Positions 38,389-43,363 of a stretch of DNA of 47,681 nucleotides are shown here, one piece after another (position 1 is the stretch's first letter; each line of letters opens with the position of its first letter). This DNA comes from Candidatus Cloacimonadota bacterium (GTDB taxonomy: Bacteria > Cloacimonadota > Cloacimonadia > JGIOTU-2). A model generated the notes under the pieces. That model had not been told where the DNA came from. It was given only the letters and a program-made list of their open reading frames with translations, and did not search any database. Location of the stretch: the NCBI GenBank assembly GCA_034661015.1, contig JAYEKN010000090.1, positions 5,158 to 52,838 of the forward strand, read 5' to 3'. The position numbers were made by a program, and so were the translations under genes.

Positions 38389-39423
38389 TTAGAAATTCAA
38401 ACTAATCCCCAAACCCCAGCTATAAGCAGTATAATTTTTTTCTCGCTTCACGATTTCTTTGGGTGAATAAGTTTTTCGTTGTTTAAATTCGTAAAGTCCC
38501 CTGAGAGTGATATTTTCAAAAACCGAATATTTCAGAATAATGTTATGATCAATAATTTGATCATTTCTGTTTTTATGGAATTCGTCAATTTCGATTGGTA
38601 GATTAGATTGATAATATTTGTCCTCAAATTCCCAGGAATAAATAAATCGAGTTCGCAAACCCAACATGTTCAAAGGAAAATTGAGTGAAAGAAAGTAAAT
38701 ATCCGAATTGTACGAAGCATCCATTACTTCCTGTCCTGCTTGAACAAAAATATCTGTAAGTGAAAATTTGTATGAATATTTTGCCTTGATCTTAAAATTT
38801 TTCAAAGGAAAAAATTCCACCGAAAACGAATTATTAAAAATATCGGCATTGTAATAAGTAAAATATTGGTTATGATAGCTTTGGGCAAATTCAAATGAAT
38901 ATTCAAATCTGAACAAATTAGGGATACTTAATTTACCTCCCGAAACATATTTATCTTTTGAATATGCCAATTCACGATACTCGTCAGAGGATTCTAATTC
39001 ACTCTTATATTGATTGATATATATGTTTGGATAATAGTAATATTTCGCAAAACATTTAAAATATTTATTTAAGTATTGGTCAATCTGTAAACTAATAAAT
39101 TTGAAATCATTAAATCCGTTTTTTTGATATTTATCATATCCGAATGTGATTTTGTCGATCTGGGTGTGTCCACCTACGAGATAATTTTTGTAGTTTAGAT
39201 TTACTCTGAATGAGTAAATTAAATCATCCACAGACTTCAGTTTATACTGTCCTGAATATGCTGAATATGTATCTGCTAAAAATTGATCTATATCATTCTC
39301 GGAAAGATGCAGAATATTGCTTTCATAAGATGTTGTAAACCTGAAATTTAAGGAAGAATTATCGGCAGAGAGATTACCGAAGAGAATAATTAAGAAACAA
39401 ATGAGACTTAAAATCTTTTTCAT
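38389..39423 (-). CDS. Probable outer-membrane beta-barrel protein
   Basis: The 344-residue protein has a signal peptide (MKKILSLICFLIILFGNLSA, cut near residue 20) followed by alternating aromatic/polar strands, many Tyr/Phe, and a C-terminal Phe (GLGISLNF) as recognised by the BAM complex. No family is recognised. It is the last gene of the pgs operon; its start lies 2 bases after the preceding stop. I infer an outer-membrane partner for poly-gamma-glutamate release, with a simple porin-like role as the alternative. Confidence 0.75.
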   Translation of the reverse strand: MKKILSLICFLIILFGNLSADNSSLNFRFTTSYESNILHLSENDIDQFLADTYSAYSGQYKLKSVDDLIYSFRVNLNYKNYLVGGHTQIDKITFGYDKYQKNGFNDFKFISLQIDQYLNKYFKCFAKYYYYPNIYINQYKSELESSDEYRELAYSKDKYVSGGKLSIPNLFRFEYSFEFAQSYHNQYFTYYNADIFNNSFSVEFFPLKNFKIKAKYSYKFSLTDIFVQAGQEVMDASYNSDIYFLSLNFPLNMLGLRTRFIYSWEFEDKYYQSNLPIEIDEFHKNRNDQIIDHNIILKYSVFENITLRGLYEFKQRKTYSPKEIVKREKNYTAYSWGLGISLNF

Positions 39424-39425
39424 TT

Positions 39426-40322
39426 TTACTCTTTTGAATTTACAACTTTATTGAGATAAACGCTAAAAATAACCTCTCTGTTTACATTAGGGTTTTTTAT
39501 TTCAATATTATGTAATCCATTTTCAAAAGTAAGGATATTTATATCTCCTGTGGAAGGTATTTGTGCCTTAGTATCTGTTAAAATTGCTTCTGAAGAACGG
39601 AAAGCAAGTTCTATGAATTTTTCAACCAATTTTTCATTATCATAAACATCAAATCTGTAACGAAATTTGTCGGAAATATCATCACTATCAATGATAATCC
39701 GGCTCACAATCTTCAATTTAAATGGACCGATCAAAGTGAATTTTACAGATTTGGAATTTGCTGAATAATAAGTGTATTTTTGTTCATTGATTGCAAGAAT
39801 TTTCTCGTCTTCATCCGCCAGCTGGCGGATTGGAAAAGAAATATATTTATATTGATCTGTTAGTGCTTTAAGTGATTCATATTTAATCTTCAACAAAATT
39901 TTATAATCAGAATCATTAAAAAATTGTAGCGAATTGCTACTATCACTAAAAAAACACAAATATTTGTTGTAGGAAGTTACATTATCACCGGATAATCCTT
40001 TTGATATTTGGGAAATATTAGCAGATTTGTGAATTATTTTTTCGATGGAATTGTTTAGAATCAGTTTATACGTATATGCGATATTTTTATCGGTATCAGT
40101 GATTAGCCTTGTGTAAATTTTTGCACTATCACAATTATCTATCTGAAGTTGCGTGGAATTATTTGGGAAAATTAGCTTATACTTAAATATTTTACCCGTA
40201 TTTTCATTAAAAATTGCATAATCTTGTAGATCTGCGTATTTATGTGTAATTTCTGCATCTAAAGGATGAAAGGTTGATAAACAAATCAGAAAAATCAGTG
40301 GCATTAAAAATAGTTTGTTCAT
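39426..40322 (-). CDS. Exported periplasmic protein of the pgs operon, unrecognised
   Basis: This 298-residue protein has a signal peptide (MNKLFLMPLIFLICLSTFHPLDA, cut near residue 23) and no other membrane segment, so it is probably periplasmic. The rest is beta-rich with repeated charged/aromatic strands; I see no known fold. ATG 40322 overlaps the pgsW-like stop by 4 bases and follows GGAGGAA, which ties it to the pgs operon. Around residues 163-171 (SFPIRQLAD) the coding sequence contains the 18-base palindromic repeat in frame. Confidence 0.72.
   Translation of the reverse strand: MNKLFLMPLIFLICLSTFHPLDAEITHKYADLQDYAIFNENTGKIFKYKLIFPNNSTQLQIDNCDSAKIYTRLITDTDKNIAYTYKLILNNSIEKIIHKSANISQISKGLSGDNVTSYNKYLCFFSDSSNSLQFFNDSDYKILLKIKYESLKALTDQYKYISFPIRQLADEDEKILAINEQKYTYYSANSKSVKFTLIGPFKLKIVSRIIIDSDDISDKFRYRFDVYDNEKLVEKFIELAFRSSEAILTDTKAQIPSTGDINILTFENGLHNIEIKNPNVNREVIFSVYLNKVVNSKE
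39813..39830. repeat. Dispersed palindromic repeat, copy 3, inside a gene
   Basis: ATCCGCCAGCTGGCGGAT is a perfect 18-base palindrome. It lies within the exported-protein gene of the pgs operon and is read there as IRQLAD, preserving the frame. The same core occurs in intergenic regions at 33002 and 36610. An in-frame repeat in a coding region resembles the behaviour of palindromic elements such as those of Rickettsia. Confidence 0.75.
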
Positions 40323-41437
40323 AAATTTTCCTCCGTTTTAATTATATCTTTTTCGCTAAATTTTTGCCGTTTATGATCAAACAATATTACCGTTAGAATC
40401 AAGATAAACATAATCATTAACGATATGGCTGCCACTGTAATATTATATCTGTCTTCGATGAAAACATTTCCCACACCAGGTTTTGGTAAAGGGACCGGTG
40501 CAACAAGCAATTCATTTTCTTTCGCTAATATGGCAATATTTTCAAGATGGATTATTGGGATACCTTTTTGGGCGAAAAGAATCATCGTTCCCTTAGCATG
40601 ATAATTTTTAACCGGAATATTTTTGTGATATCCTGTCTCAATCAATTCTCCGTTCAATGAGCTCCCCAGACTGGATAATCCTCCCCCCACATTCACATAC
40701 AATTTTATCTTTTTTGTTTTTTCGGTATTGAAGAACTCCATTTTCTTCTCGACACTTGCCATTAGGCTGTCTTCCTTGATAAGGGGAATATTATTTCGAT
40801 GAATAGAGTTTTCAAGCAGTTCTCTACCTTGTTTACTCAAACCTCGTCCATTATCTTCTCCACCACCGATGGAAGAGGCAACCGATCTGTATGGAAATAT
40901 TCCTTCTCGATACAACAAATTTTCCATATCAAGCCAGGTAAATTGGGGGTCAGTAGCTCCGAACATGGAAGCTCCTGGTGAACTAATAATTACCAAGTCC
41001 AGTTCAAGAATTTTTGCAGCACTCAAAACAGCAATATTCAAAGCCGGAAATGAGCCGGTGTAACTAACTGCAACAGCATCTCCCTGTTGCAATCCTGTTT
41101 TCTTGAAAAATTCAACGATCACAGCAGCAAAATTCGGATTCAGGGATGTAAGTTTAGACTCTAACTTGCCCTCTTCTGTAGTAATTTGTGTATATTTTTC
41201 ACCGATTAAACCTGTTTTATTCGGGTCGTTGACTTCATCAATAAAGATTCCCTGTTCAATTCGATAATCTTTCAAAATTTTTTCAGCCTTTTCCATTAAT
41301 ACAGCTGCTGCCAATTTTTCTTTATAGTATTTTTGCTTTTGTTTTACCCGGCTGTTATTAGACCATGCAAATAGCATTAACGAAATGATCAATAATGATA
41401 TCAAACTAAATTTAGATTTTGCACTTGGAATAAACAT
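40319..41437 (-). CDS. Poly-gamma-glutamate system protein (PgsW-like)
   Basis: The 372-residue protein has one N-terminal membrane helix (about 10-27), a large periplasmic part and a C-terminal helix (about 333-353). I recognise it as the poly-gamma-glutamate system protein that accompanies PgsB/PgsC in several diderms. Landmarks are DAVAVSYTGSFPALNIAVLSA, SSPGASMFGATDPQFTWLDME, SIGGGEDNGRGLS and NVGGGLSSLGSS. Its chemistry is unknown. GAGGT lies before its ATG, 16 bases after pgsC; it overlaps the next gene by 4 bases. Confidence 0.8.
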   Translation of the reverse strand: MFIPSAKSKFSLISLLIISLMLFAWSNNSRVKQKQKYYKEKLAAAVLMEKAEKILKDYRIEQGIFIDEVNDPNKTGLIGEKYTQITTEEGKLESKLTSLNPNFAAVIVEFFKKTGLQQGDAVAVSYTGSFPALNIAVLSAAKILELDLVIISSPGASMFGATDPQFTWLDMENLLYREGIFPYRSVASSIGGGEDNGRGLSKQGRELLENSIHRNNIPLIKEDSLMASVEKKMEFFNTEKTKKIKLYVNVGGGLSSLGSSLNGELIETGYHKNIPVKNYHAKGTMILFAQKGIPIIHLENIAILAKENELLVAPVPLPKPGVGNVFIEDRYNITVAAISLMIMFILILTVILFDHKRQKFSEKDIIKTEENL

Positions 41438-41453
41438 ATTTTACCTCAATTTG

Positions 41454-41900
41454 TTAAATGATCTTTCCTGAAAAAACCAAAACCATAATAAACCTAACAA
41501 TTACAGCTGCCATACCCATTATTGTTAAAGTCGGCACGATACCTTGACGATCCATAGAATTTGCAATAAGACCGGGAATGATGTATCCAATTACCTGAGC
41601 AGAATAATCTCCGGGTAAATATCCGAACAAACCATACCAACGAACAAGCCAGCCAAGAATAAAACCGGCAAGAACAGAAATCACCATCCTTCGTCGTCCA
41701 TACATAAAAACCCATATGCCAATTAATTTGACGATTCCATACGCTAAGAAGCTAATCATCAATGTTCCCAAAACTGTCCACGGTTGATGCAAATACATTG
41801 CTACATATCCACTAACAACGATTCCGCCGGCAGCAGCGCCGAACGTTTCTAAAAAGAACAAACTAATTATAACTCCAAATCCAATTGAGGCTTCAAACAT
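41454..41900 (-). CDS. pgsC: Poly-gamma-glutamate biosynthesis membrane protein PgsC/CapC
   Basis: PgsC is the integral membrane partner of PgsB. The 148-residue protein has at least four predicted membrane helices, the start IGFGVIISLFFLETFGAAAGGIVVSGYVA, and the GYIIPGLIANSMDRQGIVPTL segment typical of the family. AGGAG lies before its ATG. It follows pgsB after 125 bases and precedes the pgsW-like gene by 16. Confidence 0.9.
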   Translation of the reverse strand: MFEASIGFGVIISLFFLETFGAAAGGIVVSGYVAMYLHQPWTVLGTLMISFLAYGIVKLIGIWVFMYGRRRMVISVLAGFILGWLVRWYGLFGYLPGDYSAQVIGYIIPGLIANSMDRQGIVPTLTIMGMAAVIVRFIMVLVFSGKII

Positions 41901-42025
41901 ATTTTATACTCCTAAAATTTATTTGCTTCATACTAAAAAAGTTTAATCACAAAAAAAACGTGAAAAAAATTCATTGCTATTTTTTCCTTTGCCCACTTTT
42001 AATCTTATGATGTAGTGATTGTGAT

Positions 42026-43195
42026 TTATAAAGTTTTCCGGTGCTGCTCCTTAAAATAATCAACGATCATCCCACCGTTTCCACCAATATTGCCTATTCC
42101 AATCAGTAAAACGGTTTTATCTTCAAGTTGATTTACTTTACTCATAAGCTCGTCTCCTCTTGTCCAGCCCATTTCTTCAATTTTATTTCCATCAATTTTA
42201 TGTCTCAAAGCAAATGACTTGATGGATGAGGATTCTTCTCCTATTAGAAATAACCTGTCAAAAGCAACATCTGTAAGCATTTGTATCAGCTGTTTGGAGC
42301 GATACATCCTATCAGCTCGAGTATTCAGAACTAATCCAAAATGGTCAATATTCGGATGCAAATTTTTGATATAATCAACAATGTATTTTGTTGATTCCGG
42401 GTCATTGGCAGCAAATGAATGGACAAAATAAATTATTTTGCCATTAATATTCATATTATATATTCTCGTAGCTCCAATGTCAGGATTCGTCTTTTTCATT
42501 GCAGATAAGGCAATTTTCCTATCTATCCCACAATTTTCACATACGTCAAGTGACAGACTTACGTTTTCTTTATGCTCAATAAATGGAAAATCTTCTATGT
42601 CTTCGTTTGCAATTTCATTGGGATTACAATAGTGAATTGTTGTATTTCGCTTTTTTGCAATTTTTTCCATCACAGGAAATAATTTTTTTTCACTGGTAAA
42701 CGCTGTTGAATTTGTGGGAATCGTATTACAAATGGAATAAGTAACGTTTTTCATACCTGGTCCCATCAAGTCAAGGTGATCCAGCCGAATATTAGTTATC
42801 ACACCCACTTCGGAATGTAACATTTTTTGTTCTGTAATCCACTGATATTCAGGAGTTACCGCCATACACTCAAGCACAAGTACATCAATATTTCTCTTGG
42901 AGGCAAATTCAACTATTTTTAATTGCTCTTTAATATTTGCACCAAAAAATCTGGCAATTGGTATTTCATTACCATTTTCCAAAATAATTCGAGGAGCGGA
43001 GCCTGTCGTTTTTGCAACTATTTTGAGACCACCAGCACGTAAACCTGAGGCAATTAAACGAGTTACACTTGATTTTCCCCTTGTTCCGTTTACGTGAATG
43101 ATTTTGGGTATCTGCTTCCTATACCGTTGATGTCTATGATACTCAAAAAGAGAATAGAGAATCAGAGTAGTGAAAAAAATGAATAAAACGAGCAT
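42026..43195 (-). CDS. pgsB: Poly-gamma-glutamate synthase PgsB/CapB
   Basis: PgsB is an ATP-dependent amide ligase related to the Mur ligases that adds glutamate through its gamma-carboxyl. The 389-residue protein has an N-terminal membrane anchor (1-16), the P-loop NGTRGKSS (36-43), and the family blocks LVLECMAVTPEYQWITEQKM, TNIRLDHLDLMGPG, and NTRADRMYRSKQL. GIGNIGGNGGMIVDYF closes it. AAAGGA precedes the ATG. It opens the five-gene operon; no PgsA/CapA hydrolase or exporter homologue is present here. Confidence 0.93.
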   Translation of the reverse strand: MLVLFIFFTTLILYSLFEYHRHQRYRKQIPKIIHVNGTRGKSSVTRLIASGLRAGGLKIVAKTTGSAPRIILENGNEIPIARFFGANIKEQLKIVEFASKRNIDVLVLECMAVTPEYQWITEQKMLHSEVGVITNIRLDHLDLMGPGMKNVTYSICNTIPTNSTAFTSEKKLFPVMEKIAKKRNTTIHYCNPNEIANEDIEDFPFIEHKENVSLSLDVCENCGIDRKIALSAMKKTNPDIGATRIYNMNINGKIIYFVHSFAANDPESTKYIVDYIKNLHPNIDHFGLVLNTRADRMYRSKQLIQMLTDVAFDRLFLIGEESSSIKSFALRHKIDGNKIEEMGWTRGDELMSKVNQLEDKTVLLIGIGNIGGNGGMIVDYFKEQHRKTL

Positions 43196-43330: not shown

Positions 43331-43363
43331 AAAAAAAAAGGGAAGAATCGTTCGATCCTTCCC
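43331..43363 (-). terminator. Intrinsic terminator of the cmk-plsC-ispH-rpsA operon
   Basis: On the - strand GGGAAG (43363-43358) pairs with CTTCCC (43345-43340), with further pairing of ATCG inside, and is followed by nine T (43339-43331). It lies 17 bases after the rpsA stop codon. It separates ribosomal S1 expression from the downstream pgs genes. Confidence 0.92.

Follow-up and report, generated by a model that had tools for sequence, protein, structure and literature searches.

A poly-gamma-glutamate operon of Cloacimonadota that ends in genes for a predicted periplasmic protein and a predicted outer-membrane barrel

Most of what is known about poly-gamma-glutamate (PGA) comes from Gram-positive bacteria, whose cells have no second membrane for it to cross. 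Its presence in the Cloacimonadota has already been reported by Calusinska et al. (2026, PMC13082233), who found that 99% of Cloacimonadota genomes from digesters carry PGA genes and saw a PGA matrix around Ca. Cloacimonas fortuita by staining with DAPI, which is not a specific stain. Anaerobic digesters commonly harbour members of this phylum, and PGA has been suggested to keep syntrophic partners together there (PMC13082233). The operon described there has three genes (CapB, CapC and CapA/PgsF) in the typical Gram-positive order, and the text of that paper never mentions an "outer membrane". Polymers are known to cross the outer membrane either through barrels of 16-18 strands that work with TPR partners or by OPX systems (PMC9601211). 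As far as the literature searched shows, the route by which PGA would leave a two-membrane cell has not been described.

The window (the whole stretch of DNA that was analysed, 47,681 nucleotides) comes from a Candidatus Cloacimonadota genome of 2.43 Mb that is 99% complete. Judged by PgsW, its closest named relatives are Candidatus Cloacimonadota. Five open reading frames run along its minus strand from 43195 to 38389. The first is pgsB (42026..43195, 389 aa), which has a Mur_ligase_M domain and scores 414.8 bits against TIGR04012 (cut-off 222.7). After 125 bp comes pgsC (41454..41900, 148 aa), at 116.2 bits against TIGR04011 (cut-off 96.45) and 112.5 bits against PF14102. The third gene encodes PgsW (40319..41437, 372 aa), a gamma_Glu_sys protein with 331.7 bits against TIGR04332 (cut-off 100). 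The last two encode a signal-peptide protein of 298 aa, here called U (39426..40322), and a 344-aa protein with a signal peptide and a C-terminal Phe, here called B (38389..39423). The initial annotation gave exactly these limits, and its reading of the first three genes as pgsB, pgsC and a pgsW-like gene holds, all three being above the NCBIfam cut-offs. The 4-base overlap (ATGA) that it saw between PgsW and U and the 2-base gap between U and B are both exact in the sequence. A hairpin with a 10-pair stem and a T run (43340..43363, minus strand), terminator-like by its match to a consensus, sits ahead of pgsB, in the gap to the S1-domain gene upstream, and it is likely the upstream boundary of the operon. 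We claim no promoter, since matches to a sigma-70-type consensus are no commoner than in shuffled sequence (26 versus 25.9).

PgsB and PgsC belong to the same families as the Bacillus PgsBCA/CapBCA proteins (TIGR04012 and TIGR04011), so this part of the synthetase is of the PgsBCA type. By homology PgsB would be the Mur-ligase-like gamma-glutamate ligase that builds the polymer, and PgsC is its small integral membrane partner. PgsW has hydrophobic segments close to either end with a large domain in between, and this central domain is probably periplasmic. No relative was found when a PgsW profile was compared with Pfam and the PDB. The operon differs from that of Bacillus in having PgsW, U and B instead of PgsA/CapA. 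None of the five operon proteins matches the PgsA/CapA domain (PF09587). One can imagine that CapA is missing from this genome altogether, which we rejected on finding the domain on another contig (C284), where it is part of a secreted protein of 1023 aa (L168, 20-3091) that also has a PKD domain and a type IX-like C-terminal tail. Upstream of it is a 1624-aa secreted protein that resembles a C25-type peptidase, and proteins of 980-1030 aa similar to the CapA-domain protein are seen in many relatives. One related genome (G001) has a PF09587 protein that starts some 2.5 kb downstream of the barrel gene, past a gpsA-like gene. Two others that are 99% complete and carry pgsB, pgsC, PgsW, U and B (G046 and G084) have no PF09587 match. 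CapA is thus neither part of this operon nor universal, since it lies on another contig here and is unmatched in those two genomes.

The initial annotation took the last gene product for a likely beta-barrel ending in Phe, and the AlphaFold2 model agrees. B is predicted to be a 14-stranded outer-membrane barrel (pLDDT 92.8, pTM 0.88), following an apparent signal peptide (...NLSA/DN), with the final strand reaching residue 343 of its 344. Nor does it fall in some unrelated transporter family: no Pfam or NCBIfam family is above cut-off, and the fold is a generic 14-strand, porin-like one. A profile sequence search of the PDB returned nothing useful for B. Foldseek matches it best to the PDB folds of CymA, OmpG and general porins, with TM about 0.5-0.67 for CymA and OmpG, and polymer exporters are further down the list (PgaA at rank 39, PelB at rank 49). 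Conservation across the barrel is highest in the extracellular loops (0.44), then the strands (0.37) and then the periplasmic turns (0.29). The conserved residues N36, S41, D66, D67, N102, D192, R286, D288 and K329 are mainly in the extracellular loops. With the lumen side assigned from hydrophobicity and not from model coordinates, the lumen-facing residues predicted for the window protein include 22 K/R and 12 D/E, and 41 of the 47 B family members have a net basic predicted lumen.

U has an apparent signal peptide too (...FHPLDA/EI), as was first noticed, and, as with B, no family in Pfam or NCBIfam matches it above cut-off. AlphaFold2 predicts two tandem beta-sandwich domains (pLDDT 88.8), their arrangement relative to each other being uncertain (pTM 0.56). 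Foldseek gives weak matches to tandem CBM22 (TM about 0.25), and a profile sequence search of the PDB gave nothing useful. There is no TPR match in U. Its relatives were gathered as a family of 47 rows (A1), and no Poly_export (OPX) domain was matched by Pfam in U or the 46 relatives. The median predicted pI among the relatives is 9.5, and a basic U is not general since that of the window is only 6.4. Some U proteins are fused to B in a single chain. These occur in the Cloacimonadota (L056, L060 and L061), in the Hydrothermota phylum (L136, L137 and L179) and in the phylum of genome G126 (L077, L145-L148 and L150), where several have an extra U domain ahead of the fusion. The order in the fusions is signal peptide, U, barrel. 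Mapped on the PgsW tree, fusion requires four changes and appears in three separate lineages. A domain attached to the N-terminus of a barrel with an even number of strands is on the periplasmic side, and from this topology we infer that U, placed ahead of the barrel, is in the periplasm. U is a putative periplasmic adaptor.

The initial annotation suggested asking whether the two downstream proteins co-occur with pgsB in other two-membrane genomes. Within the Cloacimonadota, PgsW is found in 105 of 125 genomes and the barrel in 106; 102 have both, 16 have neither and 7 are discordant, so that the barrel is in 102 of the 105 genomes with PgsW. Those of the discordant genomes that were examined are explained by contig ends (G109, G026, G030, G007 and G086). 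In G050 the barrel starts at base 9 of its contig, and in G051 it is on a different contig from PgsW, which is followed by an unrelated gene. The barrel is essentially single-copy in the phylum; four genomes have a second match, and three of these are fragments. Loci were also picked by diversity and by length of contig, with 2.2 kb or more of sequence beyond PgsW, and among the 38 of these from the Cloacimonadota the barrel follows PgsW in 37. It is thus not absent beside pgsBC in related genomes. In four Cloacimonadota loci (L037, L054, L055 and L059) the barrel comes straight after PgsW and no U was detected. In Ca. Cloacimonas-type loci the barrel is followed by a 110-aa protein with no Pfam match (L041, 9813-10145) and then by a gpsA-like gene, and a similar 95-aa reading frame is after the fused barrel in L056.

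The same arrangement is found in other phyla. TIGR04332 detects PgsW in 13 of 396 Chlorobi/Bacteroidota genomes, 21 of 60 from the Hydrothermota phylum, 28 of 80 from the G126 phylum and 37 of 237 Myxococcota. Strong barrel matches occur in 6 of the 13 Chlorobi/Bacteroidota genomes that have PgsW versus 0 of the 383 that lack it, three weak matches (E 5e-5 to 7e-4) being disregarded. For the Hydrothermota phylum the figures are 20 of 21 versus 0 of 39. The barrel is almost never present without PgsW, and Fisher p-values for their co-occurrence, which ignore relatedness and are descriptive only, are 7e-14 (Cloacimonadota), 5e-15 (Hydrothermota phylum) and 3e-10 (Chlorobi/Bacteroidota). In loci chosen as above the barrel follows PgsW in 14 of 15 from the Hydrothermota phylum, 7 of 10 from the G126 phylum, 7 of 13 from the Chlorobi/Bacteroidota and 0 of 10 from the Myxococcota. 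In genome G131 (L083) the barrel is also on the contig that has PgsB. The gene order is kept across loci with short gaps or ATGA overlaps, and the median gap between U and B is -4 bp (56 loci). Since both the order and the coupling recur across phyla, this arrangement is far from chance. That U and B are associated with PGA synthesis is well demonstrated.

It must be noted that this association is not universal. PgsB, PgsC and PgsW are found without U or B in all 10 Myxococcota loci (L154-L163), with no barrel match in the 12 genomes searched from that phylum, and 5 of the 13 Chlorobi/Bacteroidota loci have neither protein. U and B are therefore not a general requirement for PGA in two-membrane bacteria, and where they are missing another route must exist or the PGA is not exported. 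On a PgsW tree built by a quick method with SH-aLRT support only, every PgsW that comes with U and B is on one side of a branch with support 100. The other side has 6 Bacteroidota and 3 G126-phylum rows, which are without U and B. The Myxococcota proteins are nested in the U/B side yet lack U and B, which suggests that the pair was lost or replaced there. Proteins of 430-560 aa that follow PgsW in five loci (L129-L132 and L151) were considered as U or B and rejected; they are not relatives of either. Three of these loci have a similar-looking secreted protein of 430-460 aa (L129, 4634-6007; L131, 6241-7539; L151, 6102-7472), and the L131 and L151 proteins match a type IX C-terminal tail model, the latter just below cut-off. 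These loci without U and B are possibly a different PGA variant. A Flavobacteriales locus (L078, 9129-10858) keeps U and has a different, 272-aa barrel-like protein in the place of B. In the Chlorobi/Bacteroidota and the Hydrothermota phylum, a lipoprotein-like LVIVD beta-propeller often comes directly after the barrel. It is homologous across 12 loci (for example L126, 2493-3491; L135, 2512-3474; L143, 8414-9667), and none was seen as a sixth gene in the Cloacimonadota.

We argue that the five genes are probably an operon for PGA synthesis and outer-membrane export in a two-membrane bacterium, with the export step read from gene context and predicted structure. PgsB and PgsC, going by their homologs, would join glutamate into the polymer at the inner membrane. 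PgsW, which seems to be anchored in that membrane, may pass on or organise the emerging chain. The operon coupling and the fusions suggest that soluble U would span the periplasm and dock to the barrel. B would then let the polyanionic chain out through its predicted 14-stranded barrel, whose predicted lumen is net basic. Points that speak against this reading are the strand number of B, low beside the 16-18 of known polymer exporters, the weak fold match of U, and the loci in which U or both proteins are missing. We lean towards the broader proposal that PgsW, U and B, joined by the lipoprotein propeller in some phyla, are the first recognised outer-membrane export machine for PGA, present in several phyla of two-membrane bacteria and built from parts distinct from all known polymer exporters.

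One can imagine instead that U and B hold PGA at the cell surface in a Wzi-like manner while the chain exits by some other route. The conserved residues of B would then mark a surface binding site, for which a place mainly in the extracellular loops is to be expected, and the Myxococcota have the synthesis genes and PgsW without the pair. However, a periplasmic partner fused to the N-terminus of the barrel and a basic predicted lumen both suit a conduit better, and the operon has no other conserved outer-membrane candidate, so we consider surface holding unlikely. B could also act on PGA as an enzyme in the outer membrane, by trimming, releasing or attaching it, the role of CapD, PgsS and hydrolases in Gram-positive systems. 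Outer-membrane barrel enzymes with active sites on the extracellular side are known (the OmpT type), and the model puts near-invariant acidic and basic residues of B, as well as a mostly conserved H283, on that side. Against this, no enzyme family matches, a catalytic triad was not identified and Foldseek ranks porins first, which makes an enzyme quite improbable. That U and B are unrelated passengers, a periplasmic protein and a general porin there by chance or shared regulation only, could be drawn from the separate barrel contig of G051, but it is barely credible when a nearly single-copy barrel is tied to PgsW across phyla, is not strongly matched in the PgsW-less Chlorobi/Bacteroidota and Hydrothermota-phylum genomes, and has been fused to U repeatedly.

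If export is the correct reading, the system shares its logic with synthase-dependent secretion (PgaA, BcsC, AlgK/AlgE, PelBC), which also has a synthase, a periplasmic adaptor and an outer-membrane barrel, the last two sometimes fused as in the U-B chains. The parts differ. The cargo there is a polysaccharide and here a polyamide; the adaptor there is a TPR protein, whereas U is predicted to be beta-sandwich; the barrel there has 16-18 strands and B a predicted 14; and the synthase there is an inner-membrane glycosyltransferase, not a Mur-ligase-like PgsB. We found no sequence homology to the parts of those systems. The PGA system would thus work like synthase-dependent secretion in outline, by analogy, without being a member of it. 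The composite OPX/beta-barrel translocon EpsY/EpsX (PMC9601211) likewise has a separate barrel and a small periplasmic partner from adjoining genes, but EpsX is 18-stranded and the cargo is a polysaccharide, and U is without the OPX domain. Some relatives of B have sub-threshold matches to EpsL (TIGR03014), whose annotation is that of an outer-membrane protein of polysaccharide biosynthesis (matched by 5 of the 47 members of the B family, best E 2.8e-4), and to BBP2_2 (PF10082; best E 3.9e-6). The window B matches neither.

The literature searched, mostly open-access, yielded no paper that deals with U, B or PgsW. The operon of PMC13082233 is from the same phylum and has the same capB and capC, and U and B are not described there. 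Our finding corrects the view of the Cloacimonadota operon as simply of the Gram-positive type. U and B are a defined, conserved gene pair that can be tested, and the single-chain fusions are natural constructs.
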